Shown here: one piece after another, positions 27,143-34,141 of the stretch | Position numbering within the stretch: position 1 is the stretch's first letter | Layout: the number at the start of each line of letters is the position of its first letter | NCBI RefSeq assembly: GCF_030913705.1 | Contig: NZ_CP133190.1 | Span: 4,675,501 to 4,739,500, forward strand | Direction: 5' to 3' | DNA from: Anaerocolumna sp. MB42-C2 | GTDB taxonomy: Bacteria > Bacillota > Clostridia > Lachnospirales > Lachnospiraceae | DNA length: 64,000 nt | Made by a program: the position numbers and the translations under genes | Notes under the pieces: model-generated | Databases searched by the model: none | Told to the model about the DNA's origin: nothing | Seen by the model: the letters and a program-made list of their open reading frames with translations, nothing else

Positions 27143-27493
27143 TTATACGGCATTATGAACAAAAGCGACAATTTTTTCAATAGGAATATCCGTTACAGAA
27201 CCAACATTATAGCAGTGGCGGCGACGATCATAGTTCTGACCATAATTCTGGCCGTCATAGCCAGTTTCGCATTCATCATATGGCGGGTCGATCGGAGTGG
27301 CAGGAGCGGATCCCTGGTCGGTTACCAGACGAACGAAATCACAGTTAACAGCTAAGATAACACCGGTGAAACCGGAACCGGATTCTCCGCCGCTTGCGGT
27401 AAATATTGTTACAGTTTCTCCAATAAAACGTGAGATATGCCTGATGAAACTTTCGTTATTATTAATACCATTAAAACCATTATTGAATGACAT
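27143..27493 (-). CDS. Small protein of unknown function, tandem paralogue 1
   Basis: 116 aa. An Asn-rich start is followed by HISRFIGETVTIFTASGGESGSGFTGVILAVNCDFVRLV, which looks like a small beta-barrel with a conserved SGGxSGxGFTGV core, then a variable Tyr/Asp/Gln-rich insert (GYDGQNYGQNYDRRRHCYNV) and the end DIPIEKIVAFVHNAV. Strong TAAGGAGG ribosome site. Its neighbour at 27511 is clearly homologous. The composition suggests a spore or envelope coat component, but I do not recognise a named family. Confidence 0.75.
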   Translation of the reverse strand: MSFNNGFNGINNNESFIRHISRFIGETVTIFTASGGESGSGFTGVILAVNCDFVRLVTDQGSAPATPIDPPYDECETGYDGQNYGQNYDRRRHCYNVGSVTDIPIEKIVAFVHNAV

Positions 27494-27510: not shown

Positions 27511-27825
27511 TTAAATAGCGTTATGAACAAAGGATGCAATCCGATCAATCGGAATATCTACTACGGCACCTACACGATAGCAGCAGTCTTTATCATATCT
27601 TCTGTCGTCATAGCATCCTTTATTATAGTTTGTGTTTAACGGGTTAGTAGGAGCTGAACCCTGTTGTATTACTAAGCGAACGAAATCGCAATTAACTGCT
27701 AAAACAACTCCGGTAAATCCGCTTCCGGATAATCCACCACTGGTAGTAAAAATTGTTACAGTCTGGCCTATAAACTTACGAATATGATTAATAAAAAATT
27801 CATTTCCACCAAATCCATTATACAT
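27511..27825 (-). CDS. Small protein of unknown function, tandem paralogue 2
   Basis: 104 aa, same architecture as the downstream paralogue: HIRKFIGQTVTIFTTSGGLSGSGFTGVVLAVNCDFVRLV, a variable Asn/Tyr/Asp middle (NYNKGCYDDRRYDKDCCYRV) and DIPIDRIASFVHNAI. The conserved ends and variable insert suggest duplication and divergence of the insert. Ribosome site TAAGGAGG. Upstream on its strand lies a short perfect hairpin CCTTG-AAAA-CAAGG near 27865; no sporulation promoter could be fixed. Confidence 0.75.
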   Translation of the reverse strand: MYNGFGGNEFFINHIRKFIGQTVTIFTTSGGLSGSGFTGVVLAVNCDFVRLVIQQGSAPTNPLNTNYNKGCYDDRRYDKDCCYRVGAVVDIPIDRIASFVHNAI

Positions 27826-28067: not shown

Positions 28068-28385
28068 ATGGGTGTATTAAAAATAACAAAACATAATTTT
28101 GAAAAAGAAGTGTTACATTCAGATAAACCTGTATTATTAGATTTTTGGGCTTCCTGGTGCGGTCCGTGTAAGATGGTAGCTCCTATTATTGACGAAGTTG
28201 CAGAAGAAACGAAAGAGGCTGTAAAGGTAGGTAAGATTAATATTGACGAAGAAGGAGAGTTAGCAGAAGCATTCCGTATTATGAGTATACCTACATTAGT
28301 AGTAGTGAAAGATGGCAAAGTAGTAGAAAGTTCGGTAGGAGTAAAACCCAAGAAAGCAATTCTTTCTTTAATCACAGAGGGATAA
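28068..28385 (+). CDS. trxA: Thioredoxin
   Basis: 105-aa cytosolic thioredoxin with the WCGPC active site (Cys31, Cys34), the preceding DFWAS, the cis-proline loop MSIPTL and a C-terminal GVKPKKAILSLI. Length is normal. Starts at ATG 28068 after AGAGGAG. It stands alone, ended by the terminator at 28442; reductase is not adjacent. Confidence 0.95.
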   Translation: MGVLKITKHNFEKEVLHSDKPVLLDFWASWCGPCKMVAPIIDEVAEETKEAVKVGKINIDEEGELAEAFRIMSIPTLVVVKDGKVVESSVGVKPKKAILSLITEG

Positions 28386-28441
28386 TATAATGAGTTAAGA
28401 CGACTATCTAATGTACAAATAAAATATTATAATATTATCAG

Positions 28442-28473
28442 CAGGCCGGAAATTTCTTCCGGTCTGTTTTTTT
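28442..28473 (+). terminator. Intrinsic terminator after trxA
   Basis: CAGGCCGGAA-ATTTC-TTCCGGTCTG (one G-T pair) followed directly by TTTTTTT. Confidence 0.9.
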
Positions 28474-28510: not shown

Positions 28511-28638
28511 AAAAAGCTCTACCGGGCAGGATATCATTGTTTGTATTTTGAAGAAATAAAAGAAAACAGTATATTATACAACCTGTACTAATATAAATGA
28601 ATAAAGACGTATCCCAATCACCGGAAAGGGTAGTGCTT

Positions 28639-29511
28639 ATGGAACAAGCAGAATGTCCGTTAACAGAGGAGAAATTAATAACTGCCAGGAGAATAGCAGA
28701 ACATGTTTTAAATCAAGTAAAGGCACAGAGTATAAGCAGAATGAAGGCCATATGGCTGGAAGTGACCGGATGCTCCGGAAATATAATATCATTTATGGAT
28801 AGTGATACACCCAACCTATATGAAATTCTAACTGGAATTATAGATTTGCGATATAGCAACATCTTAATGGGTGCGGAGGGTGAATATGCCTTCGAAAGAT
28901 TCTTAGAAACCCTGGATACGGAATTTATACTATTAGTGGATGGGGCTGTTTCTACTAATAGTAACGGTATGTATAACATTATTGCCAATTATCAAGGCAG
29001 AAGGATAACGGCAATGGAAGCAGTAAACATGGCTGGGGAGAAAGCCAAATACATAGTATCGGTTGGTACTTGTGCTTCCTATGGAGGAATTTCTGCAGCC
29101 AGGCCCAATCCATCCGGTTCGTTAAGTGTTCCTGATTTCTTAAACCGGCCTGTAATACGGCTGCCCGGCTGCTCCAGCCATCCTGATTGGGTATTGGGAA
29201 CATTGGCTCATTTAATAGGGTATGGTGTACCGCTGCTGGATGAAGATAGCAGGCCTGTTTTGTTTTATGGCAGCACTGTACATGATAATTGTACAAGACG
29301 TGGATTCTTTGATAATGGAATTTATGCCAGAAATTTCGGCGAGGAGGGGTGTATGTTTGAGATTGGATGCAGAGGCCCGGTAACAAGAGCTGATTGTCCC
29401 AGGCGTAAATGGAATGGTTATGTTAACTGGCCGGTTGGAGATAATTCCTGCTGCATCGGATGTACGCAGCGTTATTTTCCGGATGGTATGGAGCCATTTG
29501 TAAGATATTAA
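28639..29511 (+). CDS. [NiFe] hydrogenase small subunit, cytosolic
   Basis: 290-aa electron-transfer subunit holding three Fe-S clusters. No Tat signal or C-terminal anchor, so cytosolic. Cluster residues seen: Cys45 in LEVTGCSGN, Cys145 (VGTCASYGG) and Cys178 (LPGCSSHPDW) for the proximal cluster; His215 and Cys218 (VHDNCTRRGFF), Cys238 and Cys244 (EEGCMFEIGCRGP) for the distal; Cys253, Cys271/272 and Cys275 (CCIGCTQRYFPD) for the medial. The first Cys of the usual proximal CxxC is Val42. As I recall, cyanobacterial-type (group 2a) HupS also reads xxxCSGN there. ATG 28639 follows GGAAAGGG; ATG 28597 has no ribosome site. Followed by the large subunit. Confidence 0.92.
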   Translation: MEQAECPLTEEKLITARRIAEHVLNQVKAQSISRMKAIWLEVTGCSGNIISFMDSDTPNLYEILTGIIDLRYSNILMGAEGEYAFERFLETLDTEFILLVDGAVSTNSNGMYNIIANYQGRRITAMEAVNMAGEKAKYIVSVGTCASYGGISAARPNPSGSLSVPDFLNRPVIRLPGCSSHPDWVLGTLAHLIGYGVPLLDEDSRPVLFYGSTVHDNCTRRGFFDNGIYARNFGEEGCMFEIGCRGPVTRADCPRRKWNGYVNWPVGDNSCCIGCTQRYFPDGMEPFVRY

Positions 29512-29601
29512 TTATTTAATCATGTGAGTCTCACCAAATAGATATCAAAGATATGATAGTGATTAGCTAATTATAAGCAAGAAAATGGAAAGGAGGTATC
29601 T

Positions 29602-30990
29602 ATGGGAGAAATTATTACAATAGATCCGATTACCAGAATAAGCGGATTTATGGAGATTCAGGCTGAAGTGGAGAATAATGTAATTGTAAACGTCAATTCG
29701 GTTGGTCTGTTGTACCGGGGGTTTGAGCAGATGCTGAAAGGAAGATCCCCTATGGATGCAATCTATTTTACCCAAAGGATCTGCGGAATCTGTTCTTCTG
29801 CCCATGCCACTGCATCTGCGCTGGCACTGGAGAATGCCATGAAGCTGAACATCAGCTTAAATGATAGTTATCTCAGAGATATTATACATGGAATGGAATT
29901 TGTACAGAACCACATCAGGCACTTTTATCAGCTGGCCATTCCCAGTTTTGCCCGTATTAAAAGTCTTAAGCTGGTGGATGATCAGGGTTATAGTGATTTC
30001 AGATTACCGGAGGAAATAAACAGCCAGATCGAAATGCATTATGCCCAGAGTATAGAACTCAGCAGACTGGCCCATGAAGCTTTAGCGGTATTGGGAGGCA
30101 AAGCACCACATAATCATGGCATATTTCTCGGAGGGGTTACCACAATTATAGACAGCTATAATTTATCTAAGATTAAAACAATCATTGACAGGATATTATC
30201 TTTTGTATCAAATGTAATGCTGGAGGATATGGGTATCATCGCAGATTATTACTCGGATTATTTTCATAAAGGTATCTCCTATCCTAATTTTATGAGTTAC
30301 GGTATTTACAACAAATATGAAGATCAGGAAATTACATTTGTAAATGCGGGAGTAATGATAGAGGGAGTGTTATATCCTTTTGATCAGCAGAATATAACAG
30401 AGCAAATTAAATATGCATGGTATCAGAGGAATCAGGACTACGATTCCGTCGATCTTACAAAAGAAGATGCCTATTCCTTTATAAAAGCACCCCGTTACAA
30501 TAGTAATCCTATGGAGGTAGGGCCGTTGGCACGACTTATTATATCAGGAGATTATACGACAGGCCACTCCTGTATGGATCGTTACATAGCAAGAGTTATT
30601 GAAACAGATATATTACTCAAAATAATGAAAAAAATAGCTGATAGAATTGAACTGCTTCCCAATAACCAACAGCCCTATGTAATGCCTGACGAAGCCTATG
30701 GTATCGGACTTACGGATACAACCAGAGGTGCTTTGGGGCATTGGTTACAGATTAAAAATCAGGTGATTGAACACTACAATATTATTACACCATCGGTCTG
30801 GAATCTATCACCAAGGGATGCTTTTGGAGTACTTGGAGTAGTTGAAAATGCTTTAATCGGTACAGAAATTAATAACATAAAGGAACCTGTAGAAATCGGA
30901 CGAATTGTTCGTTCCTATGATCCCTGTGTTTCCTGTGCTACTCATCTGATTGGCGATACAGGCGGAAAGATTATTGAGGTAATTGTTTGA
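29602..30990 (+). CDS. [NiFe] hydrogenase large (catalytic) subunit
   Basis: 462-aa catalytic subunit. The nickel-iron site is bound by Cys61 and Cys64 (RICGICSSAH) and by Cys442 and Cys445 (DPCVSCATH). The sequence runs 14 residues past His448, the C-terminal tail expected to be removed by the maturation protease encoded next. Strong GGAAAGGAGG before ATG 29602. Length is somewhat short but full for a cytosolic group 1/2-type enzyme. It forms the heterodimer with the upstream small subunit. No accessory hypBCDEF genes lie in the window, so these must be elsewhere if the enzyme is made active. Confidence 0.95.
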   Translation: MGEIITIDPITRISGFMEIQAEVENNVIVNVNSVGLLYRGFEQMLKGRSPMDAIYFTQRICGICSSAHATASALALENAMKLNISLNDSYLRDIIHGMEFVQNHIRHFYQLAIPSFARIKSLKLVDDQGYSDFRLPEEINSQIEMHYAQSIELSRLAHEALAVLGGKAPHNHGIFLGGVTTIIDSYNLSKIKTIIDRILSFVSNVMLEDMGIIADYYSDYFHKGISYPNFMSYGIYNKYEDQEITFVNAGVMIEGVLYPFDQQNITEQIKYAWYQRNQDYDSVDLTKEDAYSFIKAPRYNSNPMEVGPLARLIISGDYTTGHSCMDRYIARVIETDILLKIMKKIADRIELLPNNQQPYVMPDEAYGIGLTDTTRGALGHWLQIKNQVIEHYNIITPSVWNLSPRDAFGVLGVVENALIGTEINNIKEPVEIGRIVRSYDPCVSCATHLIGDTGGKIIEVIV

Positions 30991-31002
30991 AGGAGAAGTA
31001 GG

Positions 31003-31470
31003 ATGCTAAAATTGATCGCAATGGGAAATGTACTGATGAAAGATGACGGGATTGGTATATTTGCTGCAAAAGCAATGGAGGAAGAACTGAAAGCAAAAGG
31101 TGTAGAAGTTATATTCGGTGAGACAGATTTTGGATATTGTATTACCAAAGTAAATGATTTTGATACGGTAATCATACTCGATGCTGCAAGTTATGGAAAA
31201 AGTCCGGGTGAAATATCCGTAATACCTCTTAATCAATATACCTGTGATTACGATGGTTATACCCAGCACAGTTATAATTTGCTGGATATCTTAAAACTAT
31301 ATTATCCTAATCTGGAAGGTGATATTCTGGCTATTGAAGTAAAAGAAATAACCTTTGGCTTTGGTTTAACACAGGAATTACAAAAGAAGAAAAAAGATAT
31401 TATCAAAAAAATCCAGTCTTATCTGGATTTATTGCTGGAAGAAAGAAGGGTGCAGGTTGAAAGAAAATAA
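31003..31470 (+). CDS. Hydrogenase maturation endopeptidase (HyaD/HupD family)
   Basis: 155-aa nickel-dependent protease that trims the C-terminus of the large subunit. Family signature GNVLMKDDGIG with Asp15 at the position of the usual Glu, Asp60 in ILDAAS, and His89 in TQHSYNL: the three expected nickel-sensing residues. It starts 12 bases after the large subunit with GGAGAAG upstream. Its end overlaps the TTG start of the next gene by 14 bases, tying that gene to the operon. Confidence 0.92.
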   Translation: MLKLIAMGNVLMKDDGIGIFAAKAMEEELKAKGVEVIFGETDFGYCITKVNDFDTVIILDAASYGKSPGEISVIPLNQYTCDYDGYTQHSYNLLDILKLYYPNLEGDILAIEVKEITFGFGLTQELQKKKKDIIKKIQSYLDLLLEERRVQVERK

Positions 31471-32038
31471 AAGATTCGATCGGATGAAAGATGAGTATGA
31501 TTTAAAAGATATGATTAATCAATTTGCAAAGGAAATCAGTTATTACAGCCAGATGGAAGCACTTGGAGTAACTCCCTATGAAAAAAATTATCACCAGAAC
31601 CTGATAAAAGAGCGCACAGAAGAATTAATTATACAAATGGAACGTTATGTGTCTAAAGCAGGGAATCCTGTTATGCAGCAATTTCCAGAGAATGTACCTG
31701 AATCGGTTCCGGAGCTGCCGCCTTTAGTTGCACCACCTCCACTAGACGTACCGGAACAGGCACCGGAGACAGCCCCGCCGGCTAAGGTACCCCCTGTGGA
31801 ACAAAAAGCTTTTACCTTGGAGGAATTAAAATACTATAACGGGGAGAACGGCCGCGCTGCTTATGTAGCCGTTAACGGTGTTGTGTATGATGTAAGCCGG
31901 AGAATAGGCTGGGCAGGAGGCACCCATTTTGGATTATTCTCCGGAAATGATTTATCCCAACAGTTTATGGCATGCCACAGGGGATTAACAGCTATCTTAG
32001 ATCAGCTGCCGGTGGTTGGAATATTAGTATCGGAATAA
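31457..32038 (+). CDS. Cytochrome b5-like heme-binding domain protein in the hydrogenase operon
   Basis: 193 aa, no signal or membrane helix. N-terminal charged helical part (1-70), a Pro-rich linker (about 75-115), then a b5-like heme/steroid-binding domain at about 118-190: FTLEELKYYNGENGRAAYVAVNGVVYDVSRR, with His157 (AGGTHFGLFSGNDL) and His174 (ACHRG) at the places expected for the two heme ligands. TTG 31457 is supported by AGAAGGG and by the 14-base overlap with the protease gene; the first ATG (31484) has no ribosome site. It may carry electrons to or from the hydrogenase. Heme binding is inferred from the two histidines. Confidence 0.82.
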   Translation: MKENKRFDRMKDEYDLKDMINQFAKEISYYSQMEALGVTPYEKNYHQNLIKERTEELIIQMERYVSKAGNPVMQQFPENVPESVPELPPLVAPPPLDVPEQAPETAPPAKVPPVEQKAFTLEELKYYNGENGRAAYVAVNGVVYDVSRRIGWAGGTHFGLFSGNDLSQQFMACHRGLTAILDQLPVVGILVSE

Positions 32039-32105
32039 TTGTGATTAAGAGATGACAAGCCGGTCGGAATTAGGAAAAACAGGCGAAAATAAGGAGGGTA
32101 ATTAG

Positions 32106-32366
32106 ATGCATGATACTATTTTGTTAAACAAAATTACAGAGGAAGTAGAACTTTTAAGTAAAACAAATCATTTCAATAAGGTTAATAAGTTATTAATCTG
32201 TTTAAATCCGAACAGTCATGTTAATGAGGATAATTTATATGATTATCTTCATAATGCAAATAAAAAACTATTTGGCTTATGGACAAAAATCAGCATAGAA
32301 AGGGATGATATACCGGACCAGGTTGCCATATTAAAAAGTATAGAAGGAGAAAAATCTTCAAAATAA
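32106..32366 (+). CDS. HypA-like protein without the zinc domain
   Basis: 86 aa starting MHDTILLNKITEEVELLSK, then KVNKLLICLNPNSHVNEDNLYDYL and FGLWTKISIERDDIPDQ. This matches the nickel-binding N-terminal half of HypA/HybF (MHE...I.E.V ... L.IG.LS.V.PE.L.F.F ... L.IE..P): the His2 nickel ligand is kept, while Glu3 is Asp. Normal HypA is about 115 aa with a CxxC...CxxC zinc ribbon in the second half; no Cys pair is present here. AAGGAGGG precedes ATG 32106, 67 bases after the b5-like gene. Probably a nickel-delivery or assembly partner. HypA kinship is by pattern only. Confidence 0.65.
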   Translation: MHDTILLNKITEEVELLSKTNHFNKVNKLLICLNPNSHVNEDNLYDYLHNANKKLFGLWTKISIERDDIPDQVAILKSIEGEKSSK

Positions 32367-32419: not shown

Positions 32420-34141
32420 GTGGCGGCGGTAGTAAGAATGAGCCCTGAAGATAGATATAAAATAAACAGTAATGCTTTTGCTGACTTCGTGATGGATAAT
32501 TACGATAGGATAAATGCAGTACGTAATAATCCCTATTATTCAGTTCAGCTAATTGAAAATAAATATGCGATTGTTTATTTACCCCTGGAAAATATGACTG
32601 TAAATAGTATCCGGCAATTTGGGTATTTGAATATTCCTAAACTTTATGGGTTATTGTCTTATGTCAGCCTGGATGCTTCGGGTATCAATCAGATTCGCAG
32701 CGATGAAAACTATAACTTTAAGGGTCAGGGGGTGTTAATGGGATTTATAGATACCGGAATCGATTACATTAATGCAGCTTTCCGAAATACTGATAAAACC
32801 ACCAGAATTATATCTATATGGGATCAGTCCATAGACAGTGACAAATATCCCGAAAATTTTTATTATGGTACAGAATATAACAGAGACCAAATTAATTCAG
32901 CTCTTCAAAGTACAGACCCAATGTCAATTGTACCCAGTACGGATACAATTGGTCATGGGACGATGATGGCGGGAGTTGCGGCAGGGACCGCTTCAGAAGA
33001 AAATGGTTTCAGCGGAGTAGTTCCGGATACAGAATTAATTATTGTTAAACTAAAAGCTGCGAAATCTTATTTAAAAGAGTTTTTTTGTGTTCCCGAGAAT
33101 GCTGTCTGCTATCAGGAAAATGATATTATGCTGGGGGTAAACTATGTGATAGAGGTAGCAAGACAATTACAAAGACCTCTGGTAATATGTTTGGGAATCG
33201 GTACAAACCAGGGTTCCCACGAAGGAAAATGCATCTTGTGCAGATACCTTCAGGACATTTGTAACAGAGTCGGAACATCAGTTGTAACGGCAGCCGGGAA
33301 TGAAGGAAACCGGGGACATCACTACTATGGAGAAGTAAATCCGTCAAAAACCCAGGAGACCATTGGCCTTAACGTGGGTGAAAATGAAACCGGTTTTGCA
33401 GTTGAACTATGGGGATATGTCCCTAACGTAGTTGAAATGGATATTTATTCACCTGATTTTACGTTAGTTGCACATATTCCGGAGAGTCTAAGTCCTCAGG
33501 AAACAAAGGTAATAACTTATCAGGACACCACAATACTTGTGGATAATCAAGTCAGTGAAACTTCAACCGGTAACCAGCTTATATTAGTACGTTTCCAAAA
33601 ACCAAAAAGCGGTATATGGAGGTTCATCGTTAAGGGGACAGGAGATTTAAATTCAAGGTATCATATCTGGTTACCAATGTACAATTTTATAACAGAGAAT
33701 ACCTTTTTCTTTAATTCGGATACCAATACAACAATTACTTCCATTGGCAATACGGTTAATGTTATAACAGCTAGCGCATATAATCCGGTTAATGACAGTT
33801 TGTATTATTATTCCAGCAGAGGATTTACCAAAGATAACGGACTGAAACCGGACATAGCGGCGCCGGGAGTTAATATTAAATCACCAGCAATGGGTAATAC
33901 CTATATTCGGGTGACAGGAACCGGTGCGGCTGCGGCACATGCTGCCGGAGTATCCGCCATGTTATTGGAATGGGGAATAATTAGGGGGAACCTGCCTTCT
34001 ATGACAAATGTGATAATCAGAAGAATGTTAGTCAGCGGTGCAAGAAGATTTAATAATATACCTTATCCCAATCAAGACTGGGGATTCGGTATACTGGATA
34101 TATACAGAACCCTTTTATTATTTATGAGCGAAGGGGTCTAG
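32420..34141 (+). CDS. Subtilase-family (S8) protein with Gly at the catalytic Ser position
   Basis: 573 aa. S8 fold with Asp111 (GFIDTGIDY), His179 (DTIGHGTMMAG) and the oxyanion Asn in TAAGNEGN. The block that normally reads GTSMAxPH reads GTGAAAAH, so residue 502 (GGT at 33923) is Gly, not Ser. Overall it resembles clostridial Csp-like germination subtilases, which include pseudoproteases. A long insert at about 325-440 separates the two halves of the domain, as in Csp proteins. No signal peptide. Start uncertain: GTG 32420, or ATG 32438 without a clear ribosome site. Followed by a terminator. Confidence 0.82.
   Translation: MAAVVRMSPEDRYKINSNAFADFVMDNYDRINAVRNNPYYSVQLIENKYAIVYLPLENMTVNSIRQFGYLNIPKLYGLLSYVSLDASGINQIRSDENYNFKGQGVLMGFIDTGIDYINAAFRNTDKTTRIISIWDQSIDSDKYPENFYYGTEYNRDQINSALQSTDPMSIVPSTDTIGHGTMMAGVAAGTASEENGFSGVVPDTELIIVKLKAAKSYLKEFFCVPENAVCYQENDIMLGVNYVIEVARQLQRPLVICLGIGTNQGSHEGKCILCRYLQDICNRVGTSVVTAAGNEGNRGHHYYGEVNPSKTQETIGLNVGENETGFAVELWGYVPNVVEMDIYSPDFTLVAHIPESLSPQETKVITYQDTTILVDNQVSETSTGNQLILVRFQKPKSGIWRFIVKGTGDLNSRYHIWLPMYNFITENTFFFNSDTNTTITSIGNTVNVITASAYNPVNDSLYYYSSRGFTKDNGLKPDIAAPGVNIKSPAMGNTYIRVTGTGAAAAHAAGVSAMLLEWGIIRGNLPSMTNVIIRRMLVSGARRFNNIPYPNQDWGFGILDIYRTLLLFMSEGV

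Follow-up and report, generated by a model that had tools for sequence, protein, structure and literature searches.

The nearest described counterparts of the system considered here come from acetogens, eight of which carry group 1a [NiFe] hydrogenases without twin-arginine translocation (Tat) signals; in the accessible text of the paper concerned, a b5 gene stands beside the enzyme only in Clostridium carboxidivorans, C. drakei and C. scatologenes, HypA/HypB are found only there, and HypA or HypB was not found in five of the eight (PMC9431212). Enzymes of this set such as CAETHG_0861-0862 and CLJU_RS14140 are presented there as two-subunit and Tat-less, like the enzyme studied here. Cyanobacterial HupSL also has a non-Cys proximal ligand, Asn occupying the corresponding place in HupS (PMC6616624, PMC4070099), and mycobacterial Huc contains three [3Fe-4S] clusters (PMC10017518); the accessible parts of these papers name no b5-like partner. 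A similar hyp-hydrogenase cluster with unnamed genes in between appears in the accessible text on Vallitalea (PMC6163223), and in C. beijerinckii, where four hydrogenase genes are annotated, expression of one of them, Cbei_3013, is linked to H2 uptake in the part of PMC5630571 available. Here we describe an operon from a stretch of 64,000 nucleotides of Anaerocolumna sp. MB42-C2 (NZ_CP133190.1, positions 4,675,501 to 4,739,500, forward strand; hereafter the window). It encodes a compact [NiFe] hydrogenase module of cytosolic type, with a minimal HypA-like protein and a cytochrome b5-like (b5) gene, which accompanies this hydrogenase in most of the genomes that possess it.

The operon comprises five genes, all in the order proposed in a first-pass annotation of the window; sizes are given in amino acids (aa), and Sec denotes selenocysteine.

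28639..29511, + strand: small subunit of the [NiFe] hydrogenase, 290 aa when read from ATG 28639 (304 aa from ATG 28597); proximal GCSGN motif, in which Asn replaces the usual Cys, medial NWP, distal HDNC; Tat signal absent
29602..30990, + strand: large subunit (462 aa) of the [NiFe] hydrogenase, with the motifs RICGICSSAH and DPCVSCATH (Cys rather than Sec) and a cleavable-type C-terminal tail
31003..31470, + strand: hydrogenase maturation protease of the HycI/HyaD type, 155 aa
31457 (TTG) or 31484 (ATG)..32038, + strand: b5-like protein, 193 aa in the longer reading
32106..32366, + strand: short HypA-like protein (86 aa) that retains the MHD start and SH38 and lacks a zinc domain

The Pfam families NiFe_hyd_SSU_C (103.7 bits), NiFeSe_Hases (352.2 bits), HycI (PF01750, 39.7 bits against a cut-off of 23) and Cyt-b5 (31.9 against 23.7) all scored above their cut-offs, and the small subunit and the protease passed TIGR00391 (208.9 against 179.5 bits) and TIGR00072 (95.5 against 47.45 bits), respectively. 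The large subunit is of group 1 type, with the L1 (RxCGxC) and L2 (DPCxxC) motifs and the tail; HupSL and Huc presumably belong to other hydrogenase groups. The HydDB label group 1a is probable by kinship to the enzymes classed in PMC9431212 only. The best PDB matches to both subunits are the periplasmic [NiFeSe]/[NiFe] hydrogenases 5jsu, 1cc1 and 4kl8, from which the window's enzyme differs in having Cys instead of Sec, no export signal, a proximal Asn, and Pro instead of Cys at the medial cluster. An identity as a [NiFeSe] hydrogenase was rejected on the Sec-free DPCVSC motif and on low scores with NF045518 (393 of 780 bits) and NF045520 (245 of 470 bits).

For the small subunit, the start at 28639 gives an N-terminus resembling those of relatives, better than that of the longest open reading frame (ORF), which begins at 28597. 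The b5 gene may start at TTG 31457, with a purine-rich stretch shortly upstream and a 14-base overlap with the protease gene, or at ATG 31484, with a 13-base gap after the protease and a start-to-start alignment with its relative in L066 (L and G numbers are our labels for loci and genomes). The earlier suggestion that the overlap physically locks the b5 gene to the operon is not supported, since the overlap exists only with the TTG start and the gene occupies two alternative positions across loci.

The distribution of the hydrogenase was surveyed in two draws, with the window's own genome counted in both: the large subunit was present in three of 200 genomes of the family (E <= 1e-30) and in 22 of 391 genomes of the class (E <= 1e-40). 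A search of the class draw with profile A2, built from operon-linked b5 proteins, was positive in 36 of the 391 genomes, namely in 20 of the 22 with the hydrogenase and in 16 of the 369 others (Fisher p = 9e-22, a rough guide only, given the kinship among the genomes, the inclusion of the own genome and the derivation of the profile from operon-linked proteins). Conserved co-occurrence, the lack of which had been named as one outcome that would undo the first-pass proposal, is thus borne out. In 17 of the 20 genomes with both, an intact b5 gene lies inside the operon, and in the remaining three (G267, G581 and G446) an intact copy is located elsewhere in the genome. The two hydrogenase genomes devoid of b5, G280 and G419, have large subunits that are broken or odd, with no small subunit found beside them, and so provide no clear evidence against the link.

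Whereas a single-sequence scan of genome contigs found no relatives, an alignment scan yielded 427 related stretches, the best 80 of which (i.e. the nearest relatives, not a random sample) were combined with the window into a set of 81 loci; some are near-copies, e.g. L106 and L107, with identical large subunits. Their hosts include Clostridium beijerinckii, C. ljungdahlii, C. ragsdalei, C. magnum, Geosporobacter, Anaerosacchariphilus, Petroclostridium and Lysinibacillus; a plasmid search returned 52 records, every one below 60 % identity. Of the 81 loci, 56 have a same-strand b5 gene no more than 3.5 kb away; it precedes the small-subunit gene in 42 of them and follows the protease gene in the other 14. 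If only the 73 loci with flanks of 1.6 kb or more at either end are considered, 53 have it. When gene clusters are read in order, with counts lowered by contig ends and merged or missed ORFs, small-large-protease occurs in 68 of 81 loci, b5-small-large-protease in 33, small-large-protease-b5 in 14, and the extended order b5-small-large-protease-HypA-HypF-HypC-HypD-HypE in nine. The five-gene order of the window, a search for which the first-pass annotation had suggested, does recur, but is rare (11 of 81 loci, window included). Maturation genes are frequent among the loci (HypA in 50, HypF in 49, HypD in 46, HypE in 45, HypC in 39 and HypB in 16); the assignments of HypF, HypC and HypD are backed by models in one locus, L036, where HypE is our own reading. 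No other electron carrier was recognized among the gene clusters present in at least six of the 81 loci, and the same clusters revealed no replacement carrier in the b5-less loci, where one six-locus cluster is of unknown kind.

Where b5 comes first, its stop codon lies from -8 to +46 bases from the closest Met that could plausibly start the small subunit in 37 of 42 loci. In G513 (L041:6396-7718) b5 and the small subunit form a single 440-aa open frame, which a lost stop codon could explain; no shared b5-small-subunit frame like that of G513 was found in any of the 81 loci.

In its predicted model (mean predicted local distance difference test score, pLDDT, 83.8) the b5-like protein of the window consists of an N-terminal helical hairpin (residues 3-67), a linker predicted with low confidence, and a cytb5M-like domain (residues 117-190). 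The two histidines at ligand positions already noted in the first pass (H157 and H174, 193-aa numbering) occur without exception in 56 aligned b5 proteins, as do L124, G129, W152, G163, C173 and G188; the alignment omits L071 and L093, which are not in operon position. Both in sequence and in predicted fold the domain appears closest to cytb5M, its nearest PDB entries being 6nzx (E 4e-13, TMt 0.88) and 6vz6 (E 3e-9, TMt 0.82), with bovine b5 (1cyo) at TMt 0.63. These two proteins, from Hadesarchaea and Methanococcoides, with 43 and 39 % identity to the window's domain, we take to be the type structures of cytb5M. The name itself follows PMC10093951, which in its accessible text deals with tyrosine-ligated MAPR relatives. 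Both His positions align with those of 6nzx, whereas the Cys that precedes the second His in operon-linked b5 proteins is replaced by Pro in 6nzx and 6vz6; many operon-linked proteins also have, unlike these two, a helical N-terminal part. Every one of the 20 b5 domains inspected in hydrogenase genomes of the class draw has the Cys-His pair. Classical cytochrome b5, the ligand motif of which is HPGG, was rejected as an identity, as GGTHFG stands in its place and classical b5 ranks below 6nzx and 6vz6. A separate variant was observed in G565, where a b5 domain is fused to a rubrerythrin-like domain within a hydrogenase operon (L053:10399-11217; PF02915, 49.7 against 22.8 bits).

The small subunit of this clade is distinguished by its proximal cluster. 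In an alignment of 82 rows, which omits the Tat-type L057 (with Cys at position 2) and L094 and L112 (without small subunit), the second proximal position is occupied by Asn in 75 rows, Glu in two, Gln in two, Asp in one and a gap in two, i.e. by a residue other than Cys in all 80 readable rows; position 1 is Cys in 80 rows and a gap in two. The nine other Cys/His ligand positions are invariant in all 82 rows, as is Pro at the medial position. The cluster-ligand roles of these positions are assumed from known structures. The four-Cys ligation of the proximal [4Fe-4S] cluster, typical of group 1 and not strictly defining of it, is therefore absent. According to the accessible portions of the sources, the hydrogenase of A. 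macleodii kept measurable activity with substitutions of the sort found in databases, and [3Fe-4S] clusters have potentials about 250 mV higher (PMC10017518), so that a bias toward uptake is plausible.

The window's small subunit contains no twin-arginine motif, the mark of Tat export that is typical, if not strictly defining, of such enzymes. Among its relatives an RR pattern occurs in L089 and L096, where we judge it not to be a signal peptide, and in the Tat-type L057. TatC was detected in three of 22 genomes: the own genome, G330 and G397, the last of which also has the Tat-type enzyme L057. The enzyme of this clade is thus most likely cytosolic, in the own genome by the missing signal alone.

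The HypA-like protein scores only 13.4 bits with the Pfam HypA family (PF01155, cut-off 28.9). Its model nonetheless has a mean pLDDT of 91, and ranks 1-14 of its fold matches in the PDB are HypA or HypA complexes (best E 1.1e-3). It shares the MH start and the fold with the HypA metallochaperone, has the MH(E/D) nickel site, and differs in its length of 86 aa and in having no zinc domain, without a single one of the paired CxxC motifs. In 35 aligned HypA sequences (L113, with an unread residue, omitted), the invariant positions include M1, H2, S37, H38 and G81, and D3 is kept in at least 90 %. The 51 HypA homologs, spread over 50 of the 81 loci, divide into 42 with no CxxC and nine with two; HypB accompanies 7/42 of the former versus 9/9 of the latter, in loci that are cut at 7 kb or by a contig end and include some truncated ORFs. 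Three of the 42 (L095, L126 and L134) appear to be of the ordinary type minus the zinc hairpin and form a second kind of zinc-less HypA, so the zinc domain may have been lost more than once. A 2025 review, in its accessible text, counts the zinc domain among the parts of HypA without naming an exception (PMC12134894). The short protein presumably delivers nickel.

On the basis of operon anatomy, conservation, gene linkage, the missing Tat signal, ligand residues located by alignment and predicted folds, we propose, with about even confidence, that the operon encodes an uptake [NiFe] hydrogenase of two subunits, located in the cytosol and equipped with accessory proteins of its own, for which the b5-like protein serves as a dedicated one-electron acceptor or docking adaptor. 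H2 would be split at the NiFe site, and electrons would pass from the proximal cluster with its Asn ligand through a [3Fe-4S]-type medial cluster (Pro) to the His/Cys distal cluster, from which they would exit to the b5-like protein, as one-electron acceptor or docking adaptor; the protease and the zinc-less HypA would complete the large subunit. Within this scheme, the putative role of the b5-like protein as electron acceptor is likely, with heme as its presumed cofactor. A bolder version, which we regard as tentative and on the whole doubtful, extends the scheme to a widespread lineage of cytosolic uptake hydrogenases in heme-poor anaerobes, with a cytb5M-class protein (binding scavenged heme or another cofactor, His + Cys-His) as the only electron exit, a proximal cluster retuned by Asn, and nickel delivery by zinc-less HypA, maybe without HypB.

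Several observations weigh against the proposed acceptor role, one of them concerning heme supply. Neither ferrochelatase (PF00762) nor AhbD (TIGR04545) scored above cut-off in any of 24 genomes, comprising the own genome, 21 others with the hydrogenase, and G024 and G099 with b5 only. PF00762 was detected in eight of 14 well-known genomes used as a control; the weak matches were G565 for PF00762 (24.9 bits, cut-off 27) and G547 for TIGR04545 (341 of 500 bits), the latter possibly an AhbD relative. Few heme-pathway genes are also noted for acetogens in the accessible text of PMC9431212. Heme may hence be imported or made by another route, or may not be the cofactor, and the loading of b5 with heme is in doubt. 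The gene linkage has its exceptions as well. In the own family b5 occurs in eight of 200 genomes and the hydrogenase in only three, all three with b5. Twenty-five of the 81 loci have no same-strand b5 within 3.5 kb (five of them with short flanks), and a search for remnants there gave matches in just two, L071, with b5 6.4 kb upstream, and L093, with b5 on the opposite strand; the pair is His-His in the former and Cys-His in the latter. Ten of the 16 b5 proteins from hydrogenase-less genomes were examined, and five have Cys-His and five Pro-His. In G446 the operon copy of b5 (L038:6954-7257) contains in-frame stops while the hydrogenase genes are open, and the form of b5 found in trans in G446, G267 and G581 also exists in G366, without a match to the hydrogenase; such copies need not serve the hydrogenase, and we did not count them as proof. 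On the large-subunit tree (85 rows; deepest forks not starred) both deep branches carry b5, and 12 changes are needed to explain the label, still fewer than in any of 500 shuffles; this pattern suggests an old association of b5 and hydrogenase with repeated loss, some of the "absent" labels reflecting short contigs. As separate observations, the intact b5 gene of G446 lies about 115 kb from the broken operon copy, and the b5 protein of G366 (L176) carries a long Gly/Thr-rich repeat tail.

The missing heme genes would be accounted for if the b5-like protein were heme-free in vivo and acted on the small subunit in assembly, stabilization or docking. The tight pairing of the b5 and small-subunit genes with one fused frame, the maturation genes held by many of these operons, and the N-terminal helical hairpin, which could be a protein-protein module, all fit such a role; we nevertheless consider it improbable, as the two ligand-position histidines are invariant in 56 rows and Lysinibacillus, aerobes expected to make heme, have the same gene. 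The rubrerythrin-like fusion in L053 and a weak resemblance of the window's hairpin to the ferritin-like EncB (E 0.6) point in a different direction, namely to a coupling of H2 oxidation with peroxide or oxygen detoxification, in which electrons would pass from hydrogenase via b5 to a ferritin-like di-iron protein. This is quite unlikely, since the fusion occurs in one locus only, the hairpin match is not significant, and no rubrerythrin cluster was recognized among the clusters present in at least six of the 81 loci. That b5 might be a chance or hitch-hiking neighbor, as the 25 loci without it and its copies in genomes without a hydrogenase match could indicate, is very improbable in view of the strong co-occurrence, the presence on both deep branches, and the retention of b5 at two alternative positions beside the same genes.

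The first-pass description of the module as little described holds in part: a b5 gene beside such hydrogenases had already been noted for three acetogens (PMC9431212). That paper was the only report of b5 beside these hydrogenases found in our search, and no report of a zinc-less HypA or of a clade-wide proximal Asn was found; the literature covered was mostly that outside subscription journals, and for the latter two excluded supplements. The C. ljungdahlii and C. ragsdalei loci L085 and L088 fall in the clade studied here and are probably the enzymes of PMC9431212, judging from the species and the single [NiFe] enzyme that its accessible text gives per genome. Unlike in that account, so far as its text is accessible, both loci have b5 and a zinc-less HypA beside the protease, and it names no change of a proximal ligand. 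Candidates for the accessory protein and HypA thus adjoin the enzyme at least in C. ljungdahlii and C. ragsdalei. Cbei_3013 is probably likewise the hydrogenase of this clade, and its link to H2 uptake would then support the proposed scheme. Should b5 be the acceptor, the enzyme would be a cytosolic hydrogenase working without a flavin, quinone or cytochrome c partner, raising the question of the heme source in cells without ferrochelatase, while the zinc-less HypA would reveal which part of HypA suffices for nickel delivery.

The own genome (G000) has a second hydrogenase operon (L064, 4.216-4.2355 Mb) with full HypA, HypB, HypF, HypC, HypD and HypE, which may explain why the window operon can do without hypFCDE. 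Its hydrogenase, with CGIC and DPCISC motifs, a NuoD-like score of 329 bits (cut-off 360) and an antiporter-like subunit, is in our reading complex-I-like.

The surroundings of the operon in the window include the following features.

28068-28385: thioredoxin gene, flanking the operon upstream
28440..28468, + strand: terminator-like hairpin with a T run, between the thioredoxin gene and the operon (pattern match only)
32420-34141, + strand: subtilase gene with a GTG start, directly 3' of the operon

Further upstream, on the - strand, two adjacent genes (27143-27493 and 27511-27825) encode small proteins of 116 and 104 aa; a Pfam search with the latter gave no family above cut-off, and the two are similar by eye. 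The subtilase is related to the germination proteins CspBA/CspC (305.8 and 291.8 bits, both below the cut-offs).

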